This document shows positions 47,290-64,000 of a stretch of 64,000 bases of DNA, piece by piece (position 1 is the first letter of the stretch; the number at the start of each line of letters is the position of its first letter). The position numbers were made by a program, and so were the translations under genes. The stretch covers positions 3,782,001 through 3,846,000 of the forward strand of contig NZ_AP024525.1 of NCBI RefSeq assembly GCF_020886775.1, written 5' to 3'. Origin of the DNA: Sinomonas cyclohexanicum. GTDB taxonomy: Bacteria; Actinomycetota; Actinomycetes; Actinomycetales; Micrococcaceae. The notes beneath the pieces were generated by a model. The model did not search any database. It worked only from the letters and a program-made list of their open reading frames with translations, and was not told the DNA's origin.

Positions 47290-47386
47290 TTTCCACGAAG
47301 CGGTGCTGTGGTCTCCATCACAGGCAATGGTGACCGGCACCGCATCGACCCCCACCCCCTTTGACCCGCCCCACTGAGGAGGCACC

Positions 47387-48895
47387 GTGACAACTGACAC
47401 CGCTGGGTCTGCTCCGCAGGCTCCGAGCGCCGGTCAGCTCGAGCAGCACGACGAGGACACCGCGCACCTGGCGTCCTTGGGCTATTCCTATGACACCACC
47501 TTCAAGCGCGAGATGACGTTCTGGGGGAACGTCTCGCTCGGCTTCACGTATCTCTCGCCCGTCGTCGGCATCTACTCCCTCTTCTCCGTCTCCCTCGGCA
47601 TCGCCGGGCCGCCCATGTTCTGGTCGCTCGTCGTGGTGGGACTCGGGCAGCTGTTCGTCGCCCTCATCTTCGGCGAGGTCGTCTCGAACTACCCGGTCGC
47701 CGGCGGCATCTATCCCTGGGCCCGCAGGCTCTGGGGCCGCAAGTGGGCGTGGATGGGAGGTTGGGTCTACCTCGTGGCCCTCCTCACCACGATCGCCTCG
47801 GTCGCCTACGGCGCCGGACCGTACCTCGCGGGCTTCCTCGGCCTGGAGAACAACGTCGACACCACGATTGTGGCGGCCCTCGTCCTCATCGCCCTCGCGA
47901 CGGTCCTGAACCTCATGGGCACCAAGATCCTCAACCGCGTGGCCATGATCGGCCTCATCGCCGAGCTCTGCGGGGCGATCGCCGTGGGCGCCTGGCTCCT
48001 CATCGCGAACCGCCATCAGGATCTGTCCGTCCTGTTCAACTCGTTCGGCTCAGGCGACGGCTCGAACTACTTCTTCGCGTTCGCCGCCGCGGGCCTCATC
48101 GGCATCTTCCAGTACTACGGATTCGAGGCCTGCGGCGACGTGGCCGAGGAGGTGCCCAACCCCGGGCGCACCATCCCGAAGGCGATGCGCACCACCATCT
48201 ACATCGGCGGCGCGGCCGCGATGTTCGTGTGCTTCTCCCTCATCCTCGCGGTCCCCGACCTCGGCAAGGTCATCTCGGGAGAGGACACCGACCCGCTCAG
48301 CACGGTTCTCGAGAACGCGTTCGGCCCGATCGGCTACCACGTGGTCCTCGGCGTGGTCCTGATCTCCTTCATCTCGTGCGTCCTCAGCCTCCAGGCCGCG
48401 GCCAGCCGCCTCTCCTACGCGATGGCCCGTGACGGCATCCTCCCCTTCAGCGGCCTCCTCGGGAAGTTCAGCGAGAAGCGCCACGTCCCGCCGTACTCCC
48501 TGCTCGTCGCCGCGGTGTTCCCGGCAGTGGTCGTGCTCGCCTCCAAGTTCTCAGCCGACGCGCTCGTCGCGATCATCTCCTTCGCAGCCATGGGCATGTA
48601 CCTCGGCTTCCAGATGGTTGTCCTCGCGGCGCTGCGGGCCCGGCTGCGCGGCTGGAAGCCGGCGGGCAAGTTCCAGCTCGGCACGTGGGGCATCCCGGTC
48701 AACATCCTCGCCCTCGTCTGGGGCGTGCTCGGCATGGTCAACATGGCCTGGCCGCGCACGCCGGACGTCGACTGGTGGCAGAACTGGATCGTCCTGCTGT
48801 CCACCGTGATCGTCATCGGCATCGGCGGGATCTACATGGCCGTCAAGAAGCCCTACCTGCGCGGCGACGCCCCCGCCGCCGACGCGCACGTCTGA
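47387..48895 (+). CDS. APC-superfamily amino acid/amine permease
   Basis: The 502-residue protein has 12 membrane segments, with WGNVSLGFTYLSPVVGIYSLF, FGEVVSNYPVAGGIYPWARRLWG and YYGFEACGDVAEEVPNPGRTIPKAMR typical of the amino acid-choline-type (ACT/APA) branch of APC transporters, which carry GABA, choline, amino acids or amines. It is the first gene of a run of same-strand genes (P450, ferredoxin, reductase and others), 39 bases ahead of the P450, so it is probably the uptake system for the substrate of that pathway. The start is the GTG/ATG at 47387 after GAGG. Confidence 0.83.
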   Translation: MTTDTAGSAPQAPSAGQLEQHDEDTAHLASLGYSYDTTFKREMTFWGNVSLGFTYLSPVVGIYSLFSVSLGIAGPPMFWSLVVVGLGQLFVALIFGEVVSNYPVAGGIYPWARRLWGRKWAWMGGWVYLVALLTTIASVAYGAGPYLAGFLGLENNVDTTIVAALVLIALATVLNLMGTKILNRVAMIGLIAELCGAIAVGAWLLIANRHQDLSVLFNSFGSGDGSNYFFAFAAAGLIGIFQYYGFEACGDVAEEVPNPGRTIPKAMRTTIYIGGAAAMFVCFSLILAVPDLGKVISGEDTDPLSTVLENAFGPIGYHVVLGVVLISFISCVLSLQAAASRLSYAMARDGILPFSGLLGKFSEKRHVPPYSLLVAAVFPAVVVLASKFSADALVAIISFAAMGMYLGFQMVVLAALRARLRGWKPAGKFQLGTWGIPVNILALVWGVLGMVNMAWPRTPDVDWWQNWIVLLSTVIVIGIGGIYMAVKKPYLRGDAPAADAHV

Positions 48896-48934
48896 TCCCC
48901 TCCTCACCGCACCACCCTTCGAAAGGATGCCGCC

Positions 48935-50149
48935 ATGAGCATCGATGCCCGGCTCGGCGAGAGCCTCGACGCCCCTTATCTGGACATCTCGGACCCGAGC
49001 TTTGCGATGCAGTCCGAGCAGCTGCGCACCGCCCGCGAGGCCAGCTGGTACGCGCGCACCAACTATGGGATCGCCGTCCTGCGCTACGCGGAGGTCAGCA
49101 AGCTCCTCAAGAGCCCCCAGCTGTCCCAGGGGAGCAAGAAGTGGCCGGACCACAACGGCGTCCACGGCGGCCTGTTCTACGACTGGTGGACCAAGAACCT
49201 CCTCGTCCTCGAGGGCGAGGACCACCACCGGATCCGCCGCCTCCTCAACCCGGCGTTCTCGCCCAAGCTCATCAAGGAGCTCGTGCCGCGCTTCCAGGAG
49301 CTCGCCAACGAACTCGTCGATGCCTTCATCGACAAGGGCGAGGCCGAGTTCGTGCGGGACTTCGCCGAGCCGTACGCGACCCGCGTCCTGACGATCCTGC
49401 TGGGCATCCCGGAGAGCGAGTGGCCGAAGATCGCGCGCCTCGCCTCGACGGTCGGCCTAGCGCTCGGCGTCACGTTCAAGCGGGACCTCGACAAGGTCGA
49501 GGCCGCGGTCGCCGAGCTCTACGAGTACGCGGAGGATCTCATCCGCGACCGCCAGGCCAACCCGGGCGAGGACTTCGTCAGCCGGCTCGTCCTCGCGAGC
49601 CGCGACGGGGACCGACTCAGCGACGAGGAGCTGCGCAACGCGCTCGTCCTGCTGATCTTCGGCGGCATGGACACGACCCGCAACCAGCTCGGCCTCGCCA
49701 TGCAGTCCTTCATCCGCAATCCGCAGCAGTGGGAGCTCCTCGCGCAGCGCCCGGACCTCGGCGGCAAGGCCGTCGAGGAGGTCATGCGGACCAACCCGAC
49801 CGTCACGTGGGTCACCCGCGAGGCGGTGGAGGACTTCGAGTACCAGGGCCTCACGATCGCCAAGGGCACCACGGTGCACCTCTTCACCCAGTCCTCCGGC
49901 ACGGACCCCCGCGCCTTCCCGGATCCGGAGATCGACCTGCTCGCCGAGCACGCGCCGCACTACGGGTTCGGCGGCGGCGTCCACCACTGCCTCGGCCACT
50001 TCGTGGCCCGCGCGGACATGAGCGAGGCCCTGCCGCTCCTGGCCCGCCGCCTCGCGAACATCCGCCTCGCCGGCGGTGACGAGTGGCTCCCTGACTCGGG
50101 CAACACCGGTCCGGTCCGCCTCCCCATCGCCTTCGACAAGCGCGCCTGA
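48935..50149 (+). CDS. Cytochrome P450, mor/pip (CYP151)-like by context
   Basis: The 404-residue protein is a class I P450: GGMDTTRN in helix I (about residues 243-250), EEVMR (ExxR motif, about 281-285) and the heme loop FGGGVHHCLGHF with Cys352 as the iron ligand. It accepts electrons from the ferredoxin and reductase encoded right behind it. Gene order P450-ferredoxin-reductase-glutamine synthetase matches the mycobacterial morpholine/piperidine oxidation loci, in which the P450 (CYP151) hydroxylates the carbon next to the ring nitrogen. The substrate here is inferred from this and is not proved. ATG 48935 follows GAAAGGA. I cannot assign a CYP family by sequence identity. Confidence 0.85.
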   Translation: MSIDARLGESLDAPYLDISDPSFAMQSEQLRTAREASWYARTNYGIAVLRYAEVSKLLKSPQLSQGSKKWPDHNGVHGGLFYDWWTKNLLVLEGEDHHRIRRLLNPAFSPKLIKELVPRFQELANELVDAFIDKGEAEFVRDFAEPYATRVLTILLGIPESEWPKIARLASTVGLALGVTFKRDLDKVEAAVAELYEYAEDLIRDRQANPGEDFVSRLVLASRDGDRLSDEELRNALVLLIFGGMDTTRNQLGLAMQSFIRNPQQWELLAQRPDLGGKAVEEVMRTNPTVTWVTREAVEDFEYQGLTIAKGTTVHLFTQSSGTDPRAFPDPEIDLLAEHAPHYGFGGGVHHCLGHFVARADMSEALPLLARRLANIRLAGGDEWLPDSGNTGPVRLPIAFDKRA

Positions 50150-50188
50150 CGCGCCCTTCACCACGAGACCCCGAAAGGAAGCACAGCC

Positions 50189-50380
50189 ATGCCCAGCATC
50201 ACCGTTGACCGCTCCCTCTGCGACAACCACGGCCAGTGCGCCATCGCCGCCCCGGACGTGTTCCGCATGAACGCCGACGGCATCCTCGAGTACGAGGAGA
50301 CGTTCGACGACGCGCTCCTGGACGAGGTCGAGGAGGCCATCGACGTCTGCCCCCTCCAGGCCATCTTCCTCAAGGACTAG
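50189..50380 (+). CDS. [3Fe-4S] ferredoxin
   Basis: The 63-residue protein has Cys11, Cys17 and Cys54-Pro, i.e. a C-x5-C...CP pattern with a non-Cys residue in place of the second ligand of a 4Fe cluster, as in the 3Fe-4S ferredoxins that serve actinobacterial P450s. It shuttles electrons between the reductase and the P450. The start follows AAAGGA by 11 bases. It sits 40 bases after the P450 stop. Confidence 0.92.
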   Translation: MPSITVDRSLCDNHGQCAIAAPDVFRMNADGILEYEETFDDALLDEVEEAIDVCPLQAIFLKD

Positions 50381-50382
50381 CG

Positions 50383-51684
50383 GTGGAGACGCCAGAGTCC
50401 CAGCGGAGGATCGTCGTCGTCGGCGCCTCCCTCGGCGGCCTCCGGGCGGCCGAGCAGCTGCGGGCCGCGGGGTGGGGCGGGGAGATCGTCGTCGTCGGCG
50501 ATGAGCCCCACATGCCGTACAACCGGCCGCCGCTGTCGAAGGCACAGCTCGCGGCGCCAGGGACCGCCGAGGAGGCCCACGCCGCCCTCGCGTTCCGGCC
50601 ACGCCGCAGCGCCACGGGGATCGAGTGGCGGCTCGGCAGCGCGGTCGCCTCGGCGGACCTCGCCGCCGGGACGGTCACGATGGCTGATGGCGGGAGCCTC
50701 GCCTTCGACGGGCTCGTCGTCGCCACGGGCCTCCGCCCTGCCCGGGTCGCCGCGCCGGGGCCGCTCGCCGGCCGGCACGTGGTCCGATCCCTCGGGGACG
50801 CGCTCGGCCTGAGGGCCGAGCTTGTCCCCGGCGCCCGCGTCGTCGTGGTCGGCGCCGGCTTCATCGGGTGCGAGGTCGCGGCGACCGCCGTCGGCCTCGG
50901 CTGCGAGGTCACGCTCGTCGAAGGCTCGAGCGGCCCCATGGAGCGCTCGGTCGGTGGGCAGCTCTCGGCCGGCGTCCGGGAGCTGCTGCGCTCACGCGGG
51001 GTCGAATGCCTGCCGGGTGTGCGCGTCGCCGAGTTCCTCGCGGTCGGCGCCCGGGCATCGGGAACGCACGACGGCGCGCGCTGCGGCGGCGTCCGGCTCA
51101 CCGACGGCCTGGTGGTCGCCACGGACGTGGTCGTCGAGGCGGTCGGCTCCGACGCGAACGTCGAGTGGCTCGAGGGCAATGGCCTCGACCTGGGTGACGG
51201 CGTCCTGTGTGATGCGTCCATGCGGGCGCTCGGCGCCGTTGCCCCGGGCGACTCCGAGCTGGCCGCACCCGTAGCCCGCGGGCGGGTCGTGGCGGTGGGC
51301 GACGTGGCCCGCTACCCCGACCGGATCACCGGCGGACCCGCCCGACGCGTCGAGCACTGGGCCACCCCCACGGACACGGCGAAGCTCGCCGCCCCGGCAC
51401 TCGTCGCCGCGCTGCGCGGGACGGAGGCCCCCGAGGCCGAGGCGCCCCTGCCCTCGTTCTGGACCGACCTGTTCGGCCTGCGGATCCAGGGCGTCGGCAG
51501 CCCCGGCCTCGCCGACGAGGTCGAGGTCCTCGAGGGCGATCCCGCCAGGCCGGCGGACGGCGTGGCCGTCGCCTACCGCCGGGAGGGCCGGCTGATCGGC
51601 ACCGTCACGGGCGCGATCCCGGCCGACCGGCACCTCACGTACCGGCAGGCCGTCCTCGACGAGCTGCGCGGCGTCCCCGCGTGA
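50383..51684 (+). CDS. NAD(P)H:ferredoxin reductase (FAD-dependent)
   Basis: The 433-residue protein has an FAD motif IVVVGASLGGLRAAEQL at residues about 9-25, an NAD motif VVVVGAGFIGCEVA at about 148-161 and AVGDVARYPD near 305. It belongs to the BphA4/CamA-like pyridine-nucleotide disulfide oxidoreductase family and carries electrons from NAD(P)H to the adjacent ferredoxin. GTG 50383 follows AAGGA by six bases, only two bases after the ferredoxin stop, which fixes the gene in the operon. The variant second Gly (GASLGG) in the first motif is tolerated in this family. Confidence 0.88.
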   Translation: METPESQRRIVVVGASLGGLRAAEQLRAAGWGGEIVVVGDEPHMPYNRPPLSKAQLAAPGTAEEAHAALAFRPRRSATGIEWRLGSAVASADLAAGTVTMADGGSLAFDGLVVATGLRPARVAAPGPLAGRHVVRSLGDALGLRAELVPGARVVVVGAGFIGCEVAATAVGLGCEVTLVEGSSGPMERSVGGQLSAGVRELLRSRGVECLPGVRVAEFLAVGARASGTHDGARCGGVRLTDGLVVATDVVVEAVGSDANVEWLEGNGLDLGDGVLCDASMRALGAVAPGDSELAAPVARGRVVAVGDVARYPDRITGGPARRVEHWATPTDTAKLAAPALVAALRGTEAPEAEAPLPSFWTDLFGLRIQGVGSPGLADEVEVLEGDPARPADGVAVAYRREGRLIGTVTGAIPADRHLTYRQAVLDELRGVPA

Positions 51685-51781
51685 CCCGCGCCGGCGTGAG
51701 CCGTTCCCACGTGACCCGTTCCTTCCTGACATGACTCCCCCTGGGCGAACACCGCCCGGGCCTGACGAAAAGAGATCCACC

Positions 51782-53203
51782 ATGACCATCCAGGACCTGT
51801 CGCCCAGCGCGCTCCGCCGCGCCCTCGACGACCGCGACGCCTTCGCCGAGCACCGCGAGCGCAACCTCCGCCCCGAGACCGTCCGCGAACTCGGCGAGAA
51901 GATCGCCGCGAGCGGCGTCGAGTACATCTACTACGCCCTCCCGACCATCGGCTCGCGCATGGTGGCCAAGATGGTCCCGGCCAGGCACTTCCGCCGCAAC
52001 CTCGAGAAGGGCATCGCGTTCCACCGCACGGCCCTGTCCGACCTGCAGAACGACCGCTACGGCAACCTGATCGGCGGCGGCATCGAGGCCCGCGAGTTCT
52101 GGGGCCTGCCCGAGCCGGACACGTTCGTGGTGCTCCCGTGGGACACGTCGGTGGCGCGCATCTTCTGCACCGCCTACGAGCCGCCGCACCTGCCCGAAGT
52201 GGGCGGGCGTCCCCTCGCCCTCGACACGCGCTCGCTCCTCATTCGCGCGCACGCCGACTTCACGGCGCGCACCGGATTCGAGGTCCGCTCGGGCACCGAG
52301 CCGGAGATGACGTGGGAGGGCCCCGGCCTCGAGGTCGTCAAGAAGCCGGGCTCGAGCCCCGCCTACCAGGTCGAGAACCTCGAACGCATGCGCCCCATCT
52401 ACAAGCAACTCGTCTCCTACGCGCAGGCCATGGGCCTGGACATGATCGAGGGAGACTACGAGGACGACGGCCAGATCGAGCTCAACTGGATGTACGACCG
52501 GATCGAGAACACCGCCGACCGGCTCGTGACCTACCGCCAGATCTGCAAGCAGGTGGCCCGCGAGTTCGGCGTCACCGCGAGCTTCATGCCCAAGCCGTAC
52601 AACGGCCAGATGGGCAACGGCTGCCACCACAACCTGAGCCTGTGGGACGGCGACACGAACGTCACCGAGGACGCCGGCAGGGTCGAGCTGCACGTCTCCG
52701 AGACCGCGAAGCACGCGATCGGCGGCCTCCTGGCCCACGCCCGCGGCTCGATGGCGGTCATGGCCTCGACCGTTAACTCCTACAAGCGCTTCTGGGACGC
52801 CGGCCAGTTCGCCCCGAGCACGGCGAACTGGGGGCTCGACTCGCGCGGGTGCCTCGTGCGGATCTCGGCCAACGGCCGCATGGAGTACCGGGTTCCGGAC
52901 GCCGCGGTCAACCCCTACCTCTCCCACACGCTCATCCTCGCGGCAATGGAGGACGGCCTCGAGCGCCGCCTCGACCCGGGCGCCCCGGACGCGGGCGGCA
53001 CGGACCTCCCCGCGATCGGCGGCCAGCTGCCGCTCACGCTGGGCGAGGCCATCGACGCGTTCGTGGCCGACACGACCCTCACGGGCCGCCTCCCCGGCGA
53101 CCTCGTGGAGATCTACACGCAGCTCAAGCAGGAGGAGTGGGCCCGCTACTGCGGCGCCATCACCGAGTGGGACCGCGAGATGTACTGGGAGACGATCCCG
53201 TGA
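51782..53203 (+). CDS. Glutamine synthetase-family ligase (gamma-glutamyl-amine synthetase-like)
   Basis: The 473-residue protein has the glutamine-synthetase core: GTEPEMTWEG (metal-binding Glu), EGDYEDDGQIELNW, NGCHHNLSLWDG (the His-rich substrate loop) and STANWGLDSRGCLVRIS with the catalytic Arg region. It has no C-terminal adenylylation-type Tyr loop, so it is not the housekeeping GlnA. Such enzymes ligate glutamate to ammonia, ethanolamine or polyamines with ATP. In the mycobacterial mor/pip loci a glutamine-synthetase-like gene follows the P450 system in the same way. It is 97 bases after the reductase and overlaps the next gene. ATG 51782 is preferred to an upstream ATG 51731 that lies outside the family N-terminus. 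Confidence 0.82.
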   Translation: MTIQDLSPSALRRALDDRDAFAEHRERNLRPETVRELGEKIAASGVEYIYYALPTIGSRMVAKMVPARHFRRNLEKGIAFHRTALSDLQNDRYGNLIGGGIEAREFWGLPEPDTFVVLPWDTSVARIFCTAYEPPHLPEVGGRPLALDTRSLLIRAHADFTARTGFEVRSGTEPEMTWEGPGLEVVKKPGSSPAYQVENLERMRPIYKQLVSYAQAMGLDMIEGDYEDDGQIELNWMYDRIENTADRLVTYRQICKQVAREFGVTASFMPKPYNGQMGNGCHHNLSLWDGDTNVTEDAGRVELHVSETAKHAIGGLLAHARGSMAVMASTVNSYKRFWDAGQFAPSTANWGLDSRGCLVRISANGRMEYRVPDAAVNPYLSHTLILAAMEDGLERRLDPGAPDAGGTDLPAIGGQLPLTLGEAIDAFVADTTLTGRLPGDLVEIYTQLKQEEWARYCGAITEWDREMYWETIP

Positions 53204-53955
53204 GCCGTGAGACTCCCGGCGGGACCCTCGTCCCCGGCGTCCTGCAGCTCGCGTGCATCGACTCCGACGCGCCGCCCCTCTTCGGCCTGCGCGACGAACA
53301 CGGCGTGCGCCGCGGCTACGAGCCGGCCGCCGCGGACCTCGTCGCCGCCGAGCTCGGCCTGACCGTCCAGTGGGTGTACCTCGCGTGGGACGACATGCTC
53401 ACCGCGGTCGCCGAGCACCGCGTCGACGCGGTGTGGTGCGGCCAGGGGATCATCCCCGAGCGCGAGGCCGTCGTGGACTTCACCGACCCGTATGCCGTCT
53501 TCGATGAGACCGTCCTGGTCCGCAAGGGCGACCCGGCCCGCAGCCGGTGGGAACTCAACGGGTACCGGGTCGCGGCGATCGAGGGCAGCGCGAACATGCG
53601 CCTCGCGGTGACGTTCGACGGCGCGATCCCCGTCGCGTTCACCGGCGCGGACGTCTTCGGCGACATGCTCGCGGCCCTCAAGCGCGGCGACGTCGACGCG
53701 ATGGTCGACGACGACGTCGTGACCGTCCCGCTCGGTGACGACCCGGCCTACGACGTCGCGTTCACCGTCCGCACGGGAAACCGCTGGGGCGTCGGCGTCG
53801 CGAAGGACAACCCCGCCCTCCGCGAGCGCCTCAACGCCGCGCTCGCGGCCGTGGTCGCGGACGGCCGGCTCGCCGCCGTCTGGGCGGACTGGATGCCGCA
53901 CCTGGCGTTCCCGCTCGGAACGCCGGCCGTGCAGCTCGACGAGGTCCGCGCATGA
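53200..53955 (+). CDS. Solute-binding-domain protein without signal peptide
   Basis: The 251-residue protein is a bacterial extracellular solute-binding domain (SBP_bac_3 type, amino acid binding): PPLFGLRDEHGVRRGYEPAAADLVAAELG, AVWCGQGIIPEREAVVDFTDPY and VAAIEGSANMRLAVT. No signal peptide, lipobox or membrane segment precedes it, and no ABC permease or ATPase gene is near. GTG 53200 overlaps the ligase stop (GTGA) and the end overlaps the next gene, so it is part of the operon. A cytoplasmic ligand-binding or enzymatic role is more likely than transport. The Asp residues that bind amino acids in the family are kept. Confidence 0.75.
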   Translation: MSRETPGGTLVPGVLQLACIDSDAPPLFGLRDEHGVRRGYEPAAADLVAAELGLTVQWVYLAWDDMLTAVAEHRVDAVWCGQGIIPEREAVVDFTDPYAVFDETVLVRKGDPARSRWELNGYRVAAIEGSANMRLAVTFDGAIPVAFTGADVFGDMLAALKRGDVDAMVDDDVVTVPLGDDPAYDVAFTVRTGNRWGVGVAKDNPALRERLNAALAAVVADGRLAAVWADWMPHLAFPLGTPAVQLDEVRA

Positions 53956-54677
53956 GCCCGCGCCCGCTCATCGGCGTCCCCGGCATGTGGTCCGCGGGGG
54001 TCAAGGGACTCCGGTTCGACGGCGTGGCCGTCGCGGTCGAGGTGCTCCGTTCGATCGACCGCGCCGGGGGCGAGCCCGTGATCCTCTACCCCGCCAGCGC
54101 GGAGGGCGCGGCGGGGCAGGTGGGGCGCGTGGACGCCGTCGTGCTTCCGGGCGGCGCCGACATCGACCCGGCCCTCTACGGCGAGGAGCCGCACGAGGAG
54201 TATGGTCCCACCGACTACGCCGGGCAGGACGCGTTCGAGCTGGGCGTCATCGACGCGTGCGTCGCGCAAGGCGTGCCGCTCCTGGCGATCTGCCGCGGGA
54301 TGCAGCTGCTCAACGTGGGCCGCGGCGGGACGCTCGTGCAGCACCTCGGGCCGGGCGGCGTCCAGCACCGTGGCGAGGTGCATGGAGTCCGCATCGAGCC
54401 CGGCTCGCTGCTGGCCGGTGCGATCGGCGGGCTCGGGGCGGACGCGTCGAGCTACCACCACCAGGCCGTCGGCACGCTCGGGGCGGGGCTGCGCGTCACG
54501 GCCCGCGCGGCCGACGGAGTCGTCGAGGCCCTCGAGCTCCCGGGGGCCGAGGTCCTCGCCGTCCAGTGGCACCCCGAGGACCTCGCGGCCTCCTCGGCCA
54601 GCGACCACGCGCTCTTCGAGTGGGTCGTGGACCGGGCGCGCGTGCGCGGAGGACGGCTCGCGGGGGTCCCCGCGTGA
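53952..54677 (+). CDS. Class I amidotransferase-fold hydrolase, PuuD-like
   Basis: The 241-residue protein has the peptidase C26 triad: Cys114 in AICRGMQLLN, His207 and Glu209 in VQWHPED, with the conserved HHQAV segment between. PuuD, the best-known relative, hydrolyses gamma-glutamyl-GABA to glutamate and GABA. It is read together with the solute-binding gene (four-base overlap) and overlaps the following paralogue by four bases. It fits the gamma-glutamylation step of the ligase. Confidence 0.85.
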   Translation: MSPRPLIGVPGMWSAGVKGLRFDGVAVAVEVLRSIDRAGGEPVILYPASAEGAAGQVGRVDAVVLPGGADIDPALYGEEPHEEYGPTDYAGQDAFELGVIDACVAQGVPLLAICRGMQLLNVGRGGTLVQHLGPGGVQHRGEVHGVRIEPGSLLAGAIGGLGADASSYHHQAVGTLGAGLRVTARAADGVVEALELPGAEVLAVQWHPEDLAASSASDHALFEWVVDRARVRGGRLAGVPA

Positions 54678-55513
54678 GCGGGCAGCTCGCCGTCGCGTGG
54701 GAGGCGGTAGCGCCCGACGGCGCCCACCTCCTGCCGGACGACGCGCCCCGCATCGCGGTGGTCGTCTCCCTGACGTTCCCGGGCATGGGGCCAGAGGCGC
54801 ACGCGATCATGGAGGCCTTCACGCGCACCGCGTTCCAGGAGCTCGTGGACCAGGGTGCGCGGCCGTTCCTCGTGGACAGCGCCGTGCAGGACCCGGAGCA
54901 CGCCGCGCTGGCGGCCCGGTCGGACGGCGTCCTGTTCCTCGGCGGCGGCGACGTGCACGCCTCGTTCTACGGGCACGACGGCCCGGTGCCCCACGAGTAC
55001 GGCGTGGACTACCCGGCGGACGTGTTCTGCCTCGACCTCGTGCGCCGGGCCGTCGAGGCCGACCAGACGGTCCTCGCGGTCTGTCGCGGCTCGCAGCTGC
55101 TCAACGTGGCACTGGGCGGCACGCTCGTGCCGGACATCGTGCCGTCGGACCTGCACAAGGGCCGGCCGGGGGAGCCGCTGTTCCTCGACGAGGAGGTCCT
55201 CCTGGCTCCCGGCAGCAAGGTGGCCGGGATCTACGGGCGCACGCGCGCCGTCGTGCGGTCCGGGCACCATCAGGCGGTGGCGGACGTCGCGCCCGGGCTT
55301 GTGGTCACGGCCCGCGCGCACGACGGCGTGGTCGAGGGCACCGAGCACCCCGGCCGGACGTGGGTGGTCGCCACCCAGTGGCACCCCGAGGACCCCGACG
55401 GACCCGCGGAGGACCGCAGGGCCCTGTTCGGCGCGTTCGTCGCGCAGGCGCGCACCGCCCTCATGGGCCCGGGTGCCGCCATCCGAGGGGCCGAAGAACC
55501 CGCGGCCTGCTGA
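54674..55513 (+). CDS. Second class I amidotransferase-fold hydrolase, PuuD-like
   Basis: The 279-residue protein has the same triad (Cys137 in AVCRGSQLLN, His237 and Glu239 in TQWHPED) and a longer N-terminus than its neighbour. The sequences outside the motifs differ clearly, so the two have probably different substrates rather than arising by a recent copy. GTG 54674 overlaps the stop of the first. It is the last gene of the operon, before a hairpin. Confidence 0.83.
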   Translation: MSGQLAVAWEAVAPDGAHLLPDDAPRIAVVVSLTFPGMGPEAHAIMEAFTRTAFQELVDQGARPFLVDSAVQDPEHAALAARSDGVLFLGGGDVHASFYGHDGPVPHEYGVDYPADVFCLDLVRRAVEADQTVLAVCRGSQLLNVALGGTLVPDIVPSDLHKGRPGEPLFLDEEVLLAPGSKVAGIYGRTRAVVRSGHHQAVADVAPGLVVTARAHDGVVEGTEHPGRTWVVATQWHPEDPDGPAEDRRALFGAFVAQARTALMGPGAAIRGAEEPAAC

Positions 55514-55534
55514 GGCGGGCCGCGGAACAGAGGC

Positions 55535-55581
55535 GAGGGGCCGTCGTCGTGCGTGGTCAGGACGCGCGACGGCGGCCCCTC
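55535..55581. terminator. Terminator of the P450/PuuD operon
   Basis: Two 19-base arms (55535-55553 and 55563-55581) pair with two irregular positions around a 9-base loop, 22 bases after the operon end. It also faces the regulator gene that ends at 55663. Confidence 0.7.
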
Positions 55582-55596
55582 TGCCGTGCCCGGGGC

Positions 55597-55655
55597 GCCG
55601 TCCCGCCTACCCTGCCTTCCCGCCGGCTGCCGTCCCGCCTACCCTGCCTTCCCGC
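55597..55655. repeat. Two 27-bp direct repeats
   Basis: A 27-bp unit ending CTACCCTGCCTTCCCGC occurs at 55597-55623 and 55629-55655, six bases apart. It lies between the terminator and the end of the regulator gene. Confidence 0.75.
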
Positions 55656-55662
55656 GTGGCGG

Positions 55663-57132
55663 TCAGCGCTGGGTGAGGACGGCGTACCCGAGCCCCGGGA
55701 TGCCGAGCGGGGTCACGACGGCGTCGTGCGGCTCGCTGGGCACGCGCTCACCCACGAGGTACCGGCCCGAGTTGTCGATCACCACACGCCCCGAGGCGTT
55801 CAGGAGCGCCGCGCCGCCGGGGATGGTGCGCAGCGCAGGCATGATTGCGGTCTCGAGGTCACGGATGCGCATGTCGTACCCCACGACTGCGGCCAGCCTG
55901 CCCGCGACGGCGATCGGTGCGGTGTGCGTGAGGATGTACTCGTCCGAGCCGAGGTAGTCCACGTACGGGCCCCAGATGGTCTGCTGGCCGGTCGCGAGCG
56001 CCGTGGTGAAGAAGGGCAGCTTCTCGTAGTCGTAGTACCGGGGCCCCCCCGGGGTGAGGTCGAGGAGGAGCTTGGTCGGGCGCGAGTCCGGCTGGGCGAC
56101 CCACCATTCCAGGACGCGTGCGCCGTCGGACACGACCTCCGGGGAGAAGACCGCGCCGGCGCTTATCGCGACCGGATGGCCGGAGAGGAACTCACCCGAG
56201 AGGCCCTCGAGCCCGGCCAGGTCCTTGGGCGTCACGGTGGCGCGGGCGCCGAGCCGCGCGGCGAGGTCCGCGGTGACGTCGCGGGCAAAACGGTCGACGT
56301 CCTCGCTCGCGCGGCCGAACCACTCGGCAATTCTGGCTACCCCGTCATGCGGCACGGCAGCGCGTGCGCTGGCCTGTGCCTCGCCGATCGCAGCGCTGTA
56401 CTCGAGCGCAAGCTTGGTGTCGATGAGATGGTGCACCGCGCGCCGGATGTGGAGGCGCACGAGCCGCTGGGCTTCGTCGGGGCGGTCATCCGAGATGGCC
56501 CGCACGAGGGCCAGATGCTCGGCGGTTGCCTGTTCGGTGTCGAACGGCTGCGCCAGGGGCGCCCACACGAGTTGCACCGACTCGGCCTGGAGCCGGATCT
56601 CTGCCGAGGTCAGCCGCGGGGACTGGGCTGTGACGGCCAGCTCGATGTGGAACCGGCTGTCGGCCCGGGCCCTGCCGTCCGGGCTGTCGGCGAGCACGAG
56701 GGCGCGGCCCAGCTCGAGCAGGCGCTCGAGCTCGTGCGCCTCGGCGCGCTCGCAGGCAAGGCGGACCGTCTCGGCGGCCACGGCGGCCTGCTCGTCGCCG
56801 AAGTCGCGCAGGTCCGCGATCGAGGCACCGGCCAGGAGCCGGCGCATCTCGTCGGGCGACGTCGAGGGCTGCGCCACGATGAACGTGCCGCCGTTCCGCC
56901 CGCGGCGCGTCTCGACGATCCCCAGGTCGCGCAGCTCGGCGAGCGCATCACGCAACGTCGCGGCCGCGACCCCGAACTTCTCGGACAGCTCAGCCTCAGT
57001 CGGCAGGCGCTCGCCGACGCGCAGCATGCCGAGGGTGATCCCCTTCGAGATGCGCTCGACGATCGAGTCGGCGCGCTCCATCTCCGGCAGTGGCCGGTAG
57101 ATCTGTGACTGGAAGGCGGTCGAAAGGGGCAC
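55663..57132 (-). CDS. FadR/GntR-family regulator with C-terminal Cache-like domain
   Basis: The 489-residue protein starts with a GntR winged helix (about residues 20-88: ISKGITLGMLRVGERLPTEAEL, VAAATLRDALAELRDLGIV), followed by a FadR-type FCD helical domain (about 89-245) with three potential metal-binding His: FHIELA, EHLALV and LHIRRAVHH. The last 230 residues (WGPYVDYLGSDEYILTHTAPIAVAGRLAAVVGYDMRIRDLE) look like a Cache/PDC sensor domain, usually found outside the cell. No membrane segment is present, so here it is cytoplasmic. The GTG at 57132 is opposite the dehydrogenase gene, with the half-sites listed at 57192-57224 between. It probably controls the neighbouring operons in response to a small molecule. 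Confidence 0.8.
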   Translation of the reverse strand: MPLSTAFQSQIYRPLPEMERADSIVERISKGITLGMLRVGERLPTEAELSEKFGVAAATLRDALAELRDLGIVETRRGRNGGTFIVAQPSTSPDEMRRLLAGASIADLRDFGDEQAAVAAETVRLACERAEAHELERLLELGRALVLADSPDGRARADSRFHIELAVTAQSPRLTSAEIRLQAESVQLVWAPLAQPFDTEQATAEHLALVRAISDDRPDEAQRLVRLHIRRAVHHLIDTKLALEYSAAIGEAQASARAAVPHDGVARIAEWFGRASEDVDRFARDVTADLAARLGARATVTPKDLAGLEGLSGEFLSGHPVAISAGAVFSPEVVSDGARVLEWWVAQPDSRPTKLLLDLTPGGPRYYDYEKLPFFTTALATGQQTIWGPYVDYLGSDEYILTHTAPIAVAGRLAAVVGYDMRIRDLETAIMPALRTIPGGAALLNASGRVVIDNSGRYLVGERVPSEPHDAVVTPLGIPGLGYAVLTQR

Positions 57133-57191
57133 GGTCCTGTTTCTGATCGGGGCGCTGCCCCTCGCGGGGCACGCCGGAAATAAATCCTCTA

Positions 57192-57224
57192 AACCTAGAT
57201 TTTTACCTAGCGGGGCCCTAGGTT
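57192..57224. promoter_or_regulatory. Operator-like half-sites between regulator and dehydrogenase
   Basis: AACCTAG at 57192-57198, ACCTAG at 57205-57210 and CCTAGGTT at 57217-57224 form an inverted repeat plus one internal copy. The spacing of the outer sites fits two GntR-type sites. They lie eight bases before the dehydrogenase start, so a bound regulator would block it. Confidence 0.6.
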
Positions 57225-57231
57225 CAAGGGT

Positions 57232-58608
57232 ATGAGCTACTACCGTACGACGTCCCCGGCCACCGGAGAGATCCTCGCCGAGTTCGAGGCCGCCACCGAC
57301 GCCGAGATCCTGACCGCCGCCGACGCCGGCCAGGCCGCCTTCGAGAAGTGGAGCCTCACCGACGTGGCCGAGCGCAGTGCCGCGCTCCGCCGCGTCGCGG
57401 CGCTCTACCGCGAGCGCGCGGCCGAGCTGGCCCGCATCATCGCCCGGGAGATGGGCAAGCCCGTGCGGCAGGGCGAGGGCGAGGTGGCCCTCGTGGCCGA
57501 CATCTACGACTACTACGCGGACAACGGCCCCGACTTCATGGCCGACGAGCACCTCACCGTGCGCGGCGGCGGGGAGGCGATCGTCCGCTCGGCGCCGGTC
57601 GGACTGCTTCTCGGGATCATGCCGTGGAACTACCCCTACTACCAGGTGGCCCGCTTCGCGGCCCCGAACCTCATGCTCGGCAACACGATCCTGCTCAAGC
57701 ACGCGCGCAACTGCCCGGAGTCCGCGCTCGCCATGCAGGAGATCTTCGACGACGCCGGTCTCCCGCCGGGCGCGTACCAGAACCTCTTCGCGACCAATAC
57801 CCAGATCGCGGACCTCCTCGCCGATCCCCGCGTCCAGGGAGTCTCCCTCACGGGCTCCGAGAGGGCGGGCTCGGCCGTCGCGGAGGTCGCGGGGCGGAAC
57901 CTCAAGAAGTTCGTGCTCGAGCTCGGGGGCTCCGATCCGTTCATCGTCCTCGACGCCGCGGACCTCGACGCGACCGTCAAGGCCGCCGTCGCGGGGCGCA
58001 TGGGCAACGCGGGCCAGGCCTGCACCGCCTCGAAGCGCTTCATCGTCGTCGAGGACCTCTACGACGCCTTCGTCGAGAAGTTCACCGCGATGATGGCCGC
58101 CATCGCCCCCGGCGACCCGCTCGACCCGGCCACACGTTTCGGTCCCGTGTCGTCGCGGGCCGCGGCCGAGGAACTCGTCGAGCAGGTGCAGGACGCCGTG
58201 GCGAAGGGGGCGGTACTGCGCACGGGCGGCTCGCTCCTCGACGGGCCGGGCGCCTTCCTCGAGCCCACGGTCCTGACTGACGTGACACCCGGCATGCGCG
58301 CGTTCGAGGAGGAGCTGTTCGGACCCGTCGCCGTGGTGTACAAGGTCCGGGACGCGGACGAGGCCGTCCAGCTGGCCAACTCGTCCCCCTACGGGCTCGG
58401 CGGCTCCGTGTTCAGCTCCGACGTGGCCGCGGCGAAGGCGGTCGCGGACCGGCTCGAGACGGGCATGGTCTTCATCAATGCCGTGGCAGATTCCCAGGAG
58501 GACCTGCCGTTCGGGGGCGTCAAGCGCTCCGGCGTGGGCCGCGAGCTGGGCAGGTTCGGCATGGAGGAGTTCGTCAACAAGAAGCTCATCCGCACCCCGC
58601 AAGGCTGA
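57232..58608 (+). CDS. NAD-dependent succinate-semialdehyde dehydrogenase, Sad-type
   Basis: The 458-residue protein matches E. coli Sad (YneI) in length and in the segments REMGKPVRQGEGEVALVA, IMPWNYPYYQV, VLELGGSDPFIVLDAADL and GQACTASKRFIV. Cys264 is the catalytic nucleophile and Glu230 the general base. It oxidises succinate semialdehyde to succinate with NAD+, the last step of the GABA shunt; other omega-amino aldehydes are possible. It is separated from the regulator by 99 bases with operator half-sites. Confidence 0.88.
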   Translation: MSYYRTTSPATGEILAEFEAATDAEILTAADAGQAAFEKWSLTDVAERSAALRRVAALYRERAAELARIIAREMGKPVRQGEGEVALVADIYDYYADNGPDFMADEHLTVRGGGEAIVRSAPVGLLLGIMPWNYPYYQVARFAAPNLMLGNTILLKHARNCPESALAMQEIFDDAGLPPGAYQNLFATNTQIADLLADPRVQGVSLTGSERAGSAVAEVAGRNLKKFVLELGGSDPFIVLDAADLDATVKAAVAGRMGNAGQACTASKRFIVVEDLYDAFVEKFTAMMAAIAPGDPLDPATRFGPVSSRAAAEELVEQVQDAVAKGAVLRTGGSLLDGPGAFLEPTVLTDVTPGMRAFEEELFGPVAVVYKVRDADEAVQLANSSPYGLGGSVFSSDVAAAKAVADRLETGMVFINAVADSQEDLPFGGVKRSGVGRELGRFGMEEFVNKKLIRTPQG

Positions 58609-58659
58609 TCTGCTCAGTCCCGAGCGGCCGCCGGTCCCCTGCCGTCCCGCCCCCAGCGC

Positions 58660-58696
58660 ACGCCGGGCCCGCACCGCGAAGGTGCGGGCCCGGCGT
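58660..58696. terminator. Terminator of the dehydrogenase gene
   Basis: ACGCCGGGCCCGCACC (58660-58675) pairs perfectly with GGTGCGGGCCCGGCGT (58681-58696) around the loop GCGAA. It lies between two convergent genes. Confidence 0.85.
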
Positions 58697-58733
58697 CGTG
58701 CGTCAGGGTCTGCGTTTCAACCCTCAGGAAGGC

Positions 58734-59999
58734 TCAGCCTTTCCCCAGCCACGCGCACGCGGCGACCACGAGGGTGGCCGTGCCCGTGGTGAGCGTCGGC
58801 TGGATGACGGGCGCGAACATGGGCGAGTGGTTCGCCGGGAGTGAGCTGACGGCCCCGGCGGCCTCTGCGTCGGCGTAGACCTGCGGGTCCGTGCCTCCCA
58901 CGCCCCAGTACGTGTACGGCGTGCCGAACGCGGTCGGGACGTCGCTGAAGTCCTCGCTCGCGGTCTGCCGCCCGTAGTCGCCCACGGTCCCGGCGGGGAA
59001 GAAGTCCTCGAACGCCGCCGTGACCTGCGCGGTGACGTCGGCGCTGTTGTCCGTGAGCGGGTAGCTGTTGTAGACCTCGAAGTCGGGCTCCTTCGGCGAG
59101 CCGGACGCCGCAGACTCCGCCTTCGCGATCCGCTGGATCGCCGCGAGGAGCTGGTCCCGGATGGCCTTGCTGTAGGTGCGGATGTTGAGCTCGAGGACGG
59201 CGTGGTCGTCGATGATGTTGCTCTTCGCGCCCACGGCGATCTTCCCCACCGTCAGGACGGCGAACTCGCCCGGCGGGACCTCGCGCGAGACCACGCCCTG
59301 CAGGCGCACCACGACCATCGAGGCCAGGACCGCGGGGTCGATCGAGAGGTGCGGCATCGACCCGTGGCTGCCCCGCCCGAAAAGCGTGATGCGGATGCTG
59401 TCCGCCATCGAGAGGAACGCGCCGGGGTGCGGGCCCACCGTCCCGGCCGGGTGCACGAGCACGTGCTGCGAGAGCGCGACGTCGGGCTTCTGGATGACGT
59501 TCGCCAGGCCGCCGTCGACCATGGTCCTCGCCCCGTCGCCGAGCTCTTCCGCAGGCTGGAACAGGGCGATCAGCGTGCCGGCCCAGGCGGCCCGCTGCTC
59601 AGAGAACAGCTTCGCCGCCCCGAGCAGGCTGCTCATGTGGAAGTCGTGCCCGCACGCGTGCATGACCGGCGTCTGGTTTCCGGCGGCGTCCGTCGAGACG
59701 GCGGTGCTCGCATAGTCGAGGCCGGTGGCCTCCTTGACGGGCAGCGCGTCCATGTCGGCGCGGAGCAGCACCGTGGGGCCGTCACCGTTCGCGAGGACGC
59801 CGACGACGCCGGTGCCGCCCACCTTGGTGTGGACCTCGAACCCGAACCCCGCGAGCTGCTCCGCGACGATCCCCGCGGTGCGCTCCTCCTGATGGCTCAG
59901 CTCGGGGTTGCGGTGGAAGTCCTTGTAGAGGGACTCCTGCCAGTCGGCGATAGCCTCCTGGCCGGACAGGATCTTGCGTGCGGATTCAGTGGATGCCAT
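58734..59999 (-). CDS. M20-family amidohydrolase
   Basis: The 421-residue protein has the M20D pattern of N-acyl amino acid hydrolases: HRNPELSHQEERT, RADMDALP (residues 80-87), HACGHDFHMS with Cys116 and His118, and FQPAEE (147-152), whose Cys, His and Glu residues bind a metal pair. It cleaves an amide between an acyl group and an amino acid or amine. It is followed by the MFS gene 60054-61583 only 54 bases upstream on this strand, which suggests uptake or release of the amide or product. The gene MASTES is a good start at ATG 59999. Confidence 0.87.
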   Translation of the reverse strand: MASTESARKILSGQEAIADWQESLYKDFHRNPELSHQEERTAGIVAEQLAGFGFEVHTKVGGTGVVGVLANGDGPTVLLRADMDALPVKEATGLDYASTAVSTDAAGNQTPVMHACGHDFHMSSLLGAAKLFSEQRAAWAGTLIALFQPAEELGDGARTMVDGGLANVIQKPDVALSQHVLVHPAGTVGPHPGAFLSMADSIRITLFGRGSHGSMPHLSIDPAVLASMVVVRLQGVVSREVPPGEFAVLTVGKIAVGAKSNIIDDHAVLELNIRTYSKAIRDQLLAAIQRIAKAESAASGSPKEPDFEVYNSYPLTDNSADVTAQVTAAFEDFFPAGTVGDYGRQTASEDFSDVPTAFGTPYTYWGVGGTDPQVYADAEAAGAVSSLPANHSPMFAPVIQPTLTTGTATLVVAACAWLGKG

Positions 60000-60053
60000 G
60001 GTCTTCCGTGCCCTTCCCTGATGACTGACGAGTGGTGGGTGCTGTGCCGGAGC

Positions 60054-61583
60054 CTACTTCTGCGCCTTCGCGGGCGCCTCGGCACGCTCCTTGCCCTTGG
60101 GCACGGTGACCATGATCGACACGATCGCGATGATCACCATGACGAGGTTGAAGATCAGCGCCATGACCGCAGCCTGGCGGATGGCCGTGTTGTCGGTGCG
60201 GCCCTGGTTGATGAGCACGTCGCCGAGGAACTGGGCCCCGGAGCTGCTGAATGCCGTGAAGATCGCGAGGGAGACGGCGGCACCGATGGCGCTGCCGAGC
60301 GACGAGGCCATCTTGTAGATGCCAGAGCCCGCTCCGGCCTGGTCTGCCGGGAGGTTGGCGAGCGCGGCGTCGGTGGATGGGGTCGCGTAGAACGCGAGGC
60401 CCAGGCCGAACAGGGCATAGGCGACGACGGAGAACCAGCGGTATTCGGAGAGCAGGAGGTTGGTGGGCATGAGCAGCAGGACCGCGATGCCCACGATCGC
60501 CGAGCCCCAGATCATGGGTTTGCGCGGGCCGAACCGCTGGAGCAGCTTCTCGCCGAAGCGGATGAAGGCGATGATGATGACCGCGTAGCCGATGGTGAGC
60601 AGGCCGGCGTCGGAGGCCTTCATGCCGCCCCCGATCTGGAGGAGCTGCTGGGTGACGATGAGCAGGCCGATCGTGCCGTTGAGGAGGAAGTTCGAGATGG
60701 TCGCGCCGGTGAACGTCCGGTTCTGGAAGAGCGCGAAGTCGATGAACGGCTTGGCGGCCCTCTTCTCGATGCGCACGAGGAAGTAGAGGCCCACGACGGC
60801 AATGACCAGCAGCCCGATGGTGACGGGGCTGCCCCAGCCGATCTTCGCGCCGAAGATGAGCACGATCATGAGGGCGAGCATCGAGACGACGAAGACGAGG
60901 ACACCGGGCAGGTCGAAGCTGAACTTGCCCTGCTGCGCGACCTTGCTCTCGGGCGTGCCGCGCAGGAGGAGGATCGAGATGACCGAGATGACAATCGAGG
61001 CGATGAAGATCCAGCGCCAGCCCACGAGGGTTGCCATGTAGCCGCCGAAGATCGAGGCGAGCCCGGAGCCGCCCCACGAGCCGATGGACCACATCGACAC
61101 CGCGCGCTGCCGGCCGGGGCCGTCCCAGTAGGTCTTCACGAGGGCCATGGTCGCCGGCATGATGCACGCGGCCGAGAGGCCCTGGATCGCGCGGCCGCCG
61201 AGCATGAGGGGCAGCGCGACGGGACCGGACGCAAGGACGATCATGAGCGAGCCGAGGATGCCGAAACCGTTGCCGATGATGCTGATGCGGACGCGTCCGA
61301 TGCGGTCGGCGAGGCCGCCCGCGACCACGATGAACATGCCCGAGAACAGGGCGGTGATCGAGACCGCGAGGTTCATGGCATCGACGTTGACGAGGGGGTT
61401 GGCCCAGGTCTTCTTGATGGGGTCGGTGTAGGCACCGTTGACGTCGGCGAGGATATTGGGGGCGACCGTCCCCATGGTTCCGGCGAAGAGCCAGAAGGTG
61501 ATGACGCCGAGGACGATGCCCAGGAGGAGCTTGTCGTTGCCCCGGAACGTGGTGGGGGTGGGGGCCGGGATTGTGCTTGCCAT
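60054..61583 (-). CDS. MFS transporter, DHA2-like
   Basis: The 509-residue protein has about 14 hydrophobic segments, with GGLADRIGRVRISIIG and AIQGLSAACIMPATMALVKTYW typical of the DHA2 branch. It runs in the same direction as the M20 gene and probably shares its transcript. The substrate is unknown. I start it at ATG 61583, with AAGGA six bases upstream; an ATG at 61589 stands directly next to AAGGA and is less suitable. Confidence 0.82.
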   Translation of the reverse strand: MASTIPAPTPTTFRGNDKLLLGIVLGVITFWLFAGTMGTVAPNILADVNGAYTDPIKKTWANPLVNVDAMNLAVSITALFSGMFIVVAGGLADRIGRVRISIIGNGFGILGSLMIVLASGPVALPLMLGGRAIQGLSAACIMPATMALVKTYWDGPGRQRAVSMWSIGSWGGSGLASIFGGYMATLVGWRWIFIASIVISVISILLLRGTPESKVAQQGKFSFDLPGVLVFVVSMLALMIVLIFGAKIGWGSPVTIGLLVIAVVGLYFLVRIEKRAAKPFIDFALFQNRTFTGATISNFLLNGTIGLLIVTQQLLQIGGGMKASDAGLLTIGYAVIIIAFIRFGEKLLQRFGPRKPMIWGSAIVGIAVLLLMPTNLLLSEYRWFSVVAYALFGLGLAFYATPSTDAALANLPADQAGAGSGIYKMASSLGSAIGAAVSLAIFTAFSSSGAQFLGDVLINQGRTDNTAIRQAAVMALIFNLVMVIIAIVSIMVTVPKGKERAEAPAKAQK

Positions 61584-61679
61584 GACCATTCCTTTAGGAA
61601 AACCAGCATTGGCTATGTCGATATAACTATGGTGCGCCCAGTCTTGTTGTCGAAAAAGCTTTGTTGCCATCGTTTGCCA

Positions 61680-61693
61680 TGTCTATTTAGACA
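61680..61693. promoter_or_regulatory. Palindrome upstream of the DHA2-like transporter gene
   Basis: TGTCTATTTAGACA is a perfect 14-bp palindrome (TGTCTA-TT-TAGACA) about 97 bases upstream of the transporter start and 16 bases after the PucR stop. It may be an operator. Confidence 0.45.
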
Positions 61694-61708
61694 CATCGGT
61701 TCCTCTCA

Positions 61709-63193: not shown

Positions 63194-63278
63194 TATGGGC
63201 CAGATCATCCAAGGACGGGAGGGCCACACGACCCTACTGTGGTCTCAACCACATCACTTCACCTCCTGGGAGGACCCC

Positions 63279-64000
63279 ATGACCGCCACGACCGACGCCG
63301 CCGCCGTCGCCCCTTCCGCCGATCCCACGGCCGTTCCCCAGCGCGCCCGCCGGCTCGCGACTTCACTGCCCGGGCCCCGCTCCCGCGAGCTCGAAGCCGA
63401 GCGCCGCCGCCACGTCACCGAGGGCTTCGGCGTGACGCTGCCGGTGTTCATCGACCGCGCCGAGGGCTCGCTGCTCGTGGACGTGGACGGCAACCGCATC
63501 ATCGACTTCGCGTCCGGCATCGCCGTGACGAGCGTGGGCGCAGCGAACCCGCGCGTGGCCGAGCGCGCCGCGGCGCAGCTGGCCCGCTTCACGCACACGT
63601 GCTTCATGGTCACGGAGTACTCGTCGTTCACCGAGGTCTGCGCGTGGCTCAACGAGCACACGCCGGGTGACTTCGAGAAGCGCACGGCGCTGTTCTCGAC
63701 CGGCGCGGAGGCCGTGGAGAACGCGGTCAAGATCGCCCGCTCCGCGACCCGCCGCCCCCACGTCCTCGTGTTCGACGACGCCTACCACGGCCGCACACAG
63801 CTCACCATGGCCATGACGGCCAAGGTGAACCCTTACCGGCTCAACTTCGGCCCGCTGCCGGGCTCGGTGTTCCGAGGCCCGACGGCGCCCGCGCACCTCG
63901 CGCCGGCCGATCCGGCTGGTTCCGCCGCCTTCGTCGCGGAGGCCCTCGCCGGCGTCGAGGCGGTCCTCGCCGAGGCCGGTCCCGAGACGTTCGCGGCCAT
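63279..64000 (+). CDS. gabT: 4-aminobutyrate aminotransferase (3' partial)
   Basis: The window ends inside the gene; 240 codons are visible. The sequence RSRELEAERRRHVTEGFGVTLPVFID, then FASGIAVTSVGAANPRV, STGAEAVENAVKIARSAT and DAYHGRTQLTMAMTAKVNPY, is that of GabT, a PLP enzyme that moves the amino group from GABA to 2-oxoglutarate to give succinate semialdehyde. The PLP-binding Lys lies beyond the window. GGGAGG at 63268-63273 is five bases before the ATG. It supplies the substrate for the dehydrogenase at 57232. Confidence 0.92.
   Translation, partial: MTATTDAAAVAPSADPTAVPQRARRLATSLPGPRSRELEAERRRHVTEGFGVTLPVFIDRAEGSLLVDVDGNRIIDFASGIAVTSVGAANPRVAERAAAQLARFTHTCFMVTEYSSFTEVCAWLNEHTPGDFEKRTALFSTGAEAVENAVKIARSATRRPHVLVFDDAYHGRTQLTMAMTAKVNPYRLNFGPLPGSVFRGPTAPAHLAPADPAGSAAFVAEALAGVEAVLAEAGPETFAA

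Follow-up and report, generated by a model that had tools for sequence, protein, structure and literature searches.

A removable mor/pip-type gene cassette in Sinomonas cyclohexanicum, probably for the catabolism of a cyclic secondary amine

In a 64,000-nucleotide stretch of DNA from Sinomonas cyclohexanicum (the window; G000:C1:3782001-3846000 of a single-contig genome of 4.41 Mb), we analysed a locus in which a cytochrome P450 with its own ferredoxin and ferredoxin reductase stands beside a glutamine synthetase (GS)-like ligase, a solute-binding-fold protein (SBP) and two PuuD-like hydrolases (Table 1). The unit is an 11.6-kb removable cassette that extends from upstream of the APC permease gene to downstream of the Sad-type aldehyde dehydrogenase gene. 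Judged by its sequences, the locus is very probably a CYP151/mor-pip-type cyclic-amine locus, and we would read it, with a probability of about 0.62, as a catabolic cassette of the CYP151 clade that acts on a saturated cyclic secondary amine, piperidine being the likeliest. The locus belongs to the mor/pip kind already known and makes a fuller anatomy of that kind visible. Among amines of industrial and natural origin, morpholine, piperidine and pyrrolidine are common. The conserved set of ligase, SBP and two hydrolases, often with an aldehyde dehydrogenase, together with its linkage to a glutaryl-CoA dehydrogenase, suggests a concrete series of steps that leads from the opening of the ring into central metabolism.

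Conservation of the gene set

The order of the eight genes is conserved more than chance would allow. The original prediction had called for a search for the same order in other Micrococcaceae, and we found it in 19 of the 22 genomes that could be assessed. The survey covered 197 Micrococcaceae genomes with identity thresholds of at least 60% for the P450, at least 60% for the ligase and at least 53% for the SBP; all three proteins occurred in an identical set of 24 genomes, and at these thresholds no genome held only one of them. Two of the 24 (G105, G148), in which the locus lies on cut contigs, were left out of the gene-order count. Laboratory strains that bear the cassette include A. mangrovi NBRC 112813 (L062) and P. 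histidinolovorans JCM 2520 (L073). The P450, ligase, SBP and both hydrolases are present in all 22 assessable genomes, and the fetched stretches lack the permease, ferredoxin and reductase in two cases (G049, G155) and the permease in a third (G178). In 7 of the 19 genomes with the eight-gene order, window included, the regulator is followed by a Sad copy of at least 75% identity whose place and orientation are unchanged. Among the 11 same-genus genomes listed, only that of the window carries a close P450, and four further Micrococcaceae genomes have only a distant P450 (32-34% identity).

A phylum-wide draw of 396 genomes gave a P450 match in four, the window's own genome included. In Mycobacterium the P450 was found in 25 of 218 genomes, with full-length copies 60-67% identical to that of the window and only partial ones in two genomes. 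Of the 27 matched mycobacterial places we fetched 17; the ligase, SBP and GntR regulator occur in all 17, the first hydrolase and the permease in 16 each and the second hydrolase in 15. From one table of loci, ten that repeated the contig of another locus were dropped before counting. The linkage of ligase, hydrolases and P450, on which the original prediction depended, thus holds up in a wide survey. One mycobacterial locus (L125, G640), perhaps a decaying copy of the cassette, has its P450 split in two; its ferredoxin, ligase and SBP are there, and the stretch that was fetched gave no match to a hydrolase. Loci with the P450 were also named in Cryobacterium, Litchfieldella, Rhodobacteraceae and a Sphingopyxis, and the P450 therefore seems to have spread between phyla. 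In two alphaproteobacterial loci, in Paracoccus sp. TOH p2 (L087) and on a plasmid of Ruegeria sp. SCSIO 43209 (L089), a pair of GS-like genes lies side by side in the vicinity of the P450 and may encode a two-part ligase.

Limits of the cassette

The edges were drawn by blastn of the window against the corresponding regions of four relatives (G162, G084, G121 and G801). In the same-genus genomes G162, G084 and G121, only 23-56 bases separate the flank at 47.01-47.05 kb from that at 58.66-58.73 kb, and since the alignments stop and resume at these flanks, the 11.6-kb stretch is absent as one piece. In G801 only the GntR-FCD-Cache gene is kept at the cassette site (L140, 10153-11753; 83% identity), beside a different gene; this orphan regulator is a possible trace of a lost cassette and fits loss as well as gain. 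By eye, its neighbour resembles a glycogen-debranching enzyme.

The M20, PucR and gabT genes are backbone in all four relatives, and the MFS transporter gene was not found in the compared stretch of G162. The empty-site comparison rules out Sad, PucR and gabT as a single unit with the run. The original prediction had joined PucR and gabT to it, which did not stand, given the inverted repeats after the second hydrolase gene and after Sad and the resumption of the backbone at the right flank in relatives; the GntR regulator and Sad do follow the run as described, and the M20 and MFS genes between Sad and PucR had been passed over. All the genes that it named are present, the cassette proteins fit the families given by Pfam, and the several four-base overlaps proved to be three (ligase/SBP, SBP/PuuD1 and PuuD1/PuuD2), which couple the last four genes of the run.

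The inverted repeat between the convergent second hydrolase and regulator genes is a possible terminator without a T run, although the terminator scan did not list it. No direct repeats were found inside either edge stretch, each edge being scanned alone rather than one against the other, nor any tRNA gene at the edges, the sole tRNA gene found in the window lying at 2809-2880. Upstream of the permease gene is an element of the form TAAATCAT-N10-AGTTTTTC, a possible promoter or operator; a similar element stands 94-119 bases before the permease start in the window and eight further loci (9 of the 29 printed). The motif AAACCTA was considered as an operator common to both promoter regions of the window and was rejected, as it is not conserved among the relatives scanned.

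Table 1. Features of the cassette and its surroundings (window positions)
Feature	Position	Strand	Evidence or remark
Gain/loss cassette, present or absent as one unit	47050..58660	.	blastn against regions of relatives
Element TAAATCAT-N10-AGTTTTTC upstream of APC	47268..47293	+	similar element in further loci
APC amino-acid/amine permease	47387..48895	+	PF13520 1.6e-52
Cytochrome P450, clade of mycobacterial loci	48935..50149	+	PF00067, identity, tree, motifs
[3Fe-4S]-type ferredoxin, 63 aa	50189..50380	+	PF13459 2.7e-13, CxxHxxC motif
Ferredoxin reductase (flavin adenine dinucleotide, FAD)	50383..51684	+	PF07992 4.3e-50
GS-like, predicted gamma-glutamyl amine ligase	51782..53203	+	PF00120 1.7e-70
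SBP_bac_3 protein (SBP)	53200..53955	+	PF00497 3.4e-27
PuuD-like, predicted gamma-glutamyl hydrolase 1 (PuuD1)	53952..54677	+	PF07722 5.7e-51
PuuD-like, predicted gamma-glutamyl hydrolase 2 (PuuD2)	54674..55513	+	PF07722 1.5e-40
Inverted repeat, 20-nt arms, between convergent PuuD2 and GntR	55535..55581	.	90% complementary
GntR-FCD regulator, C-terminal Cache-like sensor domain (PipR-like)	55663..57132	-	PF00392, PF07729; PF22673/PF02743 under cut-off
Sad-type aldehyde dehydrogenase	57232..58608	+	PF00171; NF006915 508 bits, under cut-off 730
Perfect 16-nt inverted repeat after Sad, right cassette edge	58660..58696	.
M20 amidohydrolase	58734..59999	-
MFS transporter	60054..61583	-
gabT, start of backbone module running past window end	63279..64000	+

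Kinship of the P450

As in the mor/pip loci, the window P450 has its own ferredoxin and reductase beside it, with a GntR/FadR-type regulator and a GS-like gene adjacent, and the ferredoxin carries the [3Fe-4S] pattern CDNHGQC...CP. The P450 shows the motifs GGMDTT (243), EVMR (282) and FGGGVHHCLG (345), and the DTTRNQ motif is kept in 58 of 61 aligned rows. In a quick tree of 67 rows, whose root and several long branches were flagged as unsure, 60 rows including all the amine-cassette P450s form one set (support of 99 in the approximate likelihood-ratio test, SH-aLRT), apart from AurH, the two P450s from ipu clusters (Paenarthrobacter aurescens TC1) and three further P450s encoded by the window's own genome; the remaining three of the six others in that genome (L004, L006 and L007) were dropped, no whole frame having been picked up. 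The window P450 groups with those of the mycobacterial loci, and the tree and the mycobacterial identities together support the proposal of a mor/pip-type P450 for secondary amines. At E<=1e-80 the 218 Mycobacterium genomes gave 27 matches, and since all were at least 60% identical to the window P450, a distant PipA is unlikely. In the portions available of papers on CYP151 or KTR9, we found no sequences with which to name the P450.

The best solved structure for the P450 is PDB 3p3l (37% identity), which we take to be AurH, the aureothin P450; AurH works in antibiotic biosynthesis and lies outside the amine-cassette set in the tree. Two Streptomyces plasmids (L088, NZ_CP071045.1; L092, NZ_CP108205.1; ~3.8-13.1 kb) carry a member of the window P450's clade (56% identity), with a ferredoxin and a reductase, between ectA and ectoine synthase, in clusters that also hold a diaminopimelate decarboxylase, an adenylating enzyme and a carrier protein, which looks like the biosynthesis of a modified ectoine.

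Ligase and hydrolases

The best NCBIfam match of the GS-like protein is the type III model (277 bits against a cut-off of 470), with gamma-glutamylputrescine synthetase at 195 bits. Aligned with GlnA and GlnA2 of the same genome, it retains the residues for metal and glutamate, while the flap Glu is replaced by F343, the roles of these sites being those that we take from the GS literature. Residues E173, E175, E227, E233, H283, R336, R360 and E368 are present in 52 of 52 rows, and position 343 is Phe in 45, Trp in five and Tyr in two; GMAS (9qur) and IpuC of strain TC1 have Trp at the flap-Glu position. The residue alignments left out L114, L116 and matches below 38% identity. The loss of the flap Glu supports the use of an amine rather than ammonia, and the protein would then be a gamma-glutamyl amine ligase and not an ammonia GS. 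The GlnA model, run against the genome, returned GlnA in two pieces, GlnA2 and the cassette ligase, and no other GS-like protein. The GlnA (type I glutamine synthetase) match is split over two open frames at G000:C1:1863533-1864964 (L127, L130), which a frameshift, an insertion or a sequencing error would explain.

Both hydrolases have a Peptidase_C26 domain and an intact catalytic triad, C114/H207/E209 in 42 of 42 rows for PuuD1 and C137/H237/E239 in 38 of 38 for PuuD2, so that the pairing of a gamma-glutamyl ligase with PuuD-like hydrolases, claimed beforehand, is borne out; both score under the NCBIfam cut-off for PuuD, and their substrate assignment is a prediction. A further PuuD-like gene (43% identity to PuuD1), near which we found no GS-like partner, lies 24 kb downstream and 15.4 kb past the window end (L132, G000:C1:3861417-3862004), and a weak additional homologue occurs elsewhere in the genome.

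Proposed pathway and alternatives

In the pathway that we propose, in which all substrates and the placing of the P450 before the ligase are predicted, the APC permease would import the amine and the P450, with its own ferredoxin and reductase, would hydroxylate the carbon next to the nitrogen, by analogy with mor/pip biochemistry, whereupon the hemiaminal would open to an amino-aldehyde. The GS-like enzyme would cap the free amine with glutamate, blocking re-cyclisation, an aldehyde dehydrogenase (Sad or another) would form the acid, and the PuuD-like hydrolases would release 5-aminovalerate and glutamate. The recurrent linkage described below suggests that the backbone GabT, aldehyde dehydrogenase, CoA-transferase and glutaryl-CoA dehydrogenase would lead on to glutarate, glutaryl-CoA and crotonyl-CoA. 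The GntR-FCD-Cache protein would sense the amine or its product, and the leaderless SBP-fold protein might bind a glutamine-like gamma-glutamylated intermediate in the cell as carrier, sensor or enzyme.

Past the window, gabT is followed by genes for a CaiB-type CoA-transferase, an acyl-CoA dehydrogenase and an aldehyde dehydrogenase. Among solved structures, the acyl-CoA dehydrogenase matches glutaryl-CoA dehydrogenases best (3swo, 527 bits); the succinate-glutarate model gives the CoA-transferase 344 bits, under its cut-off of 750. Homologues of this module lie near the cassette elsewhere, upstream in several Arthrobacter and up- or downstream in mycobacteria. The nearest glutaryl-CoA dehydrogenase is no more than 30 kb from the P450 in 18 of the 24 Micrococcaceae genomes (no more than 10 kb in 9). 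For Mycobacterium, where the search took in 23 genomes and left out two with a partial P450 (G598, G640), a distance of 10 kb or less was found in 13. Because of the gabT module and this recurrent linkage, a C5 end (5-aminovalerate and glutarate) is favoured over a C4 end (gamma-aminobutyrate, GABA, and succinate), and the genes point to a route from piperidine through 5-aminovalerate to glutarate. The GABA and succinate end given in the original prediction is probably wrong, since gabT runs into the CoA-transferase, glutaryl-CoA dehydrogenase and aldehyde dehydrogenase genes.

A C4 end would follow if the natural substrate of the same cassette were pyrrolidine, which the P450 would convert to 4-aminobutanal, with gamma-glutamyl-GABA and GABA as intermediates on the way to succinate. 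The Sad-type dehydrogenase, whose best NCBIfam match is succinic semialdehyde dehydrogenase, under the cut-off, and the neighbouring gabT, which scores best on GABA transaminase models, would suit this, and according to PMC2018728, PipA and the FadR-like GntR regulator PipR of M. smegmatis concern piperidine and pyrrolidine alike. However, gabT leads into the C5 genes and that linkage recurs in both groups, and we consider pyrrolidine unlikely as the natural substrate, while one cassette may serve both amines.

The order of reactions could also be that of the ipu clusters, in which case a primary or branched amine would be gamma-glutamylated first, the P450 would oxidise the amide and a PuuD-like hydrolase would free the product. 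An ipu cluster for isopropylamine is reportedly present in Pseudomonas KIE171, and those of P. aurescens TC1 (pTC1/pTC2), of the same family as the window genome, likewise have a permease, P450, ferredoxin, reductase, ligase (IpuC) and amidotransferase-type hydrolase. The order ligase, P450, amidotransferase is described in PMC6776027, and it is probably the reverse of that in the window. The TC1 proteins are only 27-31% identical to those of the window (30-31% for the P450, 27-29% for the ligase), the P450 is of another clade, orthology was not found, and no SBP is annotated in the two stretches. Moreover, a secondary amine is by general knowledge a poor ligase substrate, and P450s of the window clade occur without a ligase in the Streptomyces clusters. 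PMC9477822 describes PipA (AAD28344.1) and MorA (AAV54064.1) as N-heterocycle hydroxylases and states that free morpholine was oxidised by MorA and its partner proteins; a ligase-first order for the window is improbable.

A further alternative is that the cassette handles a different natural amine, N-methylated or of alkaloid type, on which the P450 would act as an N-dealkylase. In its favour, the P450 is 82-92% identical in 19 other Micrococcaceae genomes, which suggests a common natural substrate, the APC permease is present, and the contexts of the clade have diversified. Against it stand the close kinship with the mycobacterial loci, the C5 module and the lack, by Pfam, of any cassette gene for formaldehyde or C1 compounds, and we regard it as very improbable.

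Several observations weigh against a piperidine cassette of the mor/pip type. The ferredoxin is present in 10 of the 17 mycobacterial places and the reductase in only 5. Close linkage to the glutaryl-CoA dehydrogenase is missing from 6 of the 24 genomes in the Micrococcaceae and from 10 of 23 in Mycobacterium (other contigs, no match, or 82 kb), and the binomial values for the linkage, ~1e-26 and 2e-24, are much too favourable, as they treat the genomes as independent. Since the glutaryl-CoA dehydrogenase is found in 14 of 15 genomes of the window genus, most of them without the cassette as far as examined, the module is resident there and older than the cassette's stay. The identity to the proven PipA and MorA enzymes is indirect. 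The two Streptomyces P450s from ect-like clusters, which have no ligase, nest within the Micrococcaceae clade, and clade membership therefore leaves the substrate unfixed, as the clade also serves biosynthesis. Finally, no cassette protein reached any cut-off among the NCBIfam models shown.

The solute-binding-fold protein

The SBP is the one part of the cassette without an explanation, and it is present throughout. Its start codon overlaps the ligase stop, no export signal was visible among 46 homologues (maximum 15-residue mean of 1.85 in the first 45 residues, by a simple hydropathy scan and not a signal-peptide predictor), and by Pfam the cassette has neither an ABC permease nor an ATPase gene; together these rule out a part in ABC transport, and from its sequence the protein is presumably cytosolic. 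Residues R88 and D171 are present in 45 of 45 rows, and the AlphaFold2 model, with a predicted local distance difference test (pLDDT) score of 85, has its nearest structures among the SocA, ArgBP and GlnBP types. It can be tentatively suggested, though with considerable doubt, that a cytosolic SBP recruited from amino-acid ABC transport handles gamma-glutamylated intermediates inside the cell, a step that mor/pip-type loci in both Micrococcaceae and Mycobacterium would have in common. On that suggestion it might, speculatively, be a carrier shielding a reactive gamma-glutamyl amino-aldehyde, assist the ligase as an allosteric partner, or itself have an enzymatic role. The SBP is in any case a candidate for a solute-binding fold that works without a transporter.

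Comparison with known systems

The likeness to the mycobacterial pip/mor loci lies in the P450 clade, the ferredoxin type and the linked GntR-FCD regulator and GS-like ligase. To our knowledge, the published description of these loci stops at the GS-like gene, whose role in them has so far been unclear; the window unit adds the permease, SBP, two hydrolases and aldehyde dehydrogenase, most of which are also in the fetched mycobacterial loci. On the pathway past ring opening, our literature search, by titles and abstracts and with most subscription journals outside it, gave only an in-silico Gulosibacter paper. With the PuuA-PuuD, Sad and PuuE route of E. coli the window shares the logic of a glutamate cap, aldehyde oxidation, hydrolysis by the PuuD family, and Sad- and GabT-type enzymes, but the PuuB oxidase there is matched by a P450 system here. 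The original prediction had seen the union of P450 and Puu logic in one locus as special. This is ruled out, because the Mycobacterium loci share the same set of ligase, SBP and hydrolases and the ipu clusters likewise pair P450, ligase and hydrolase; the combination is not unique.

Plasmid pGKT2 of Gordonia sp. KTR9 (L085, 10.5-17.5 kb) has a P450 (62% identity) and a ligase (57%), with GntR-FCD and Cache genes adjoining and no SBP or hydrolase match within 12 kb. Unlike in the window, the ligase runs directly into an FAD oxidoreductase, followed by a second P450 gene, presumably XplA; the ligase and P450 reductase seem to be joined. A scattered version is found on pR1CP1 of R. opacus 1CP, with the P450, permease, ferredoxin, reductase, ligase, SBP and a PuuD-like hydrolase; it also includes a pair of aldehyde dehydrogenases and an aminotransferase with 32% identity to GabT of the window genome.

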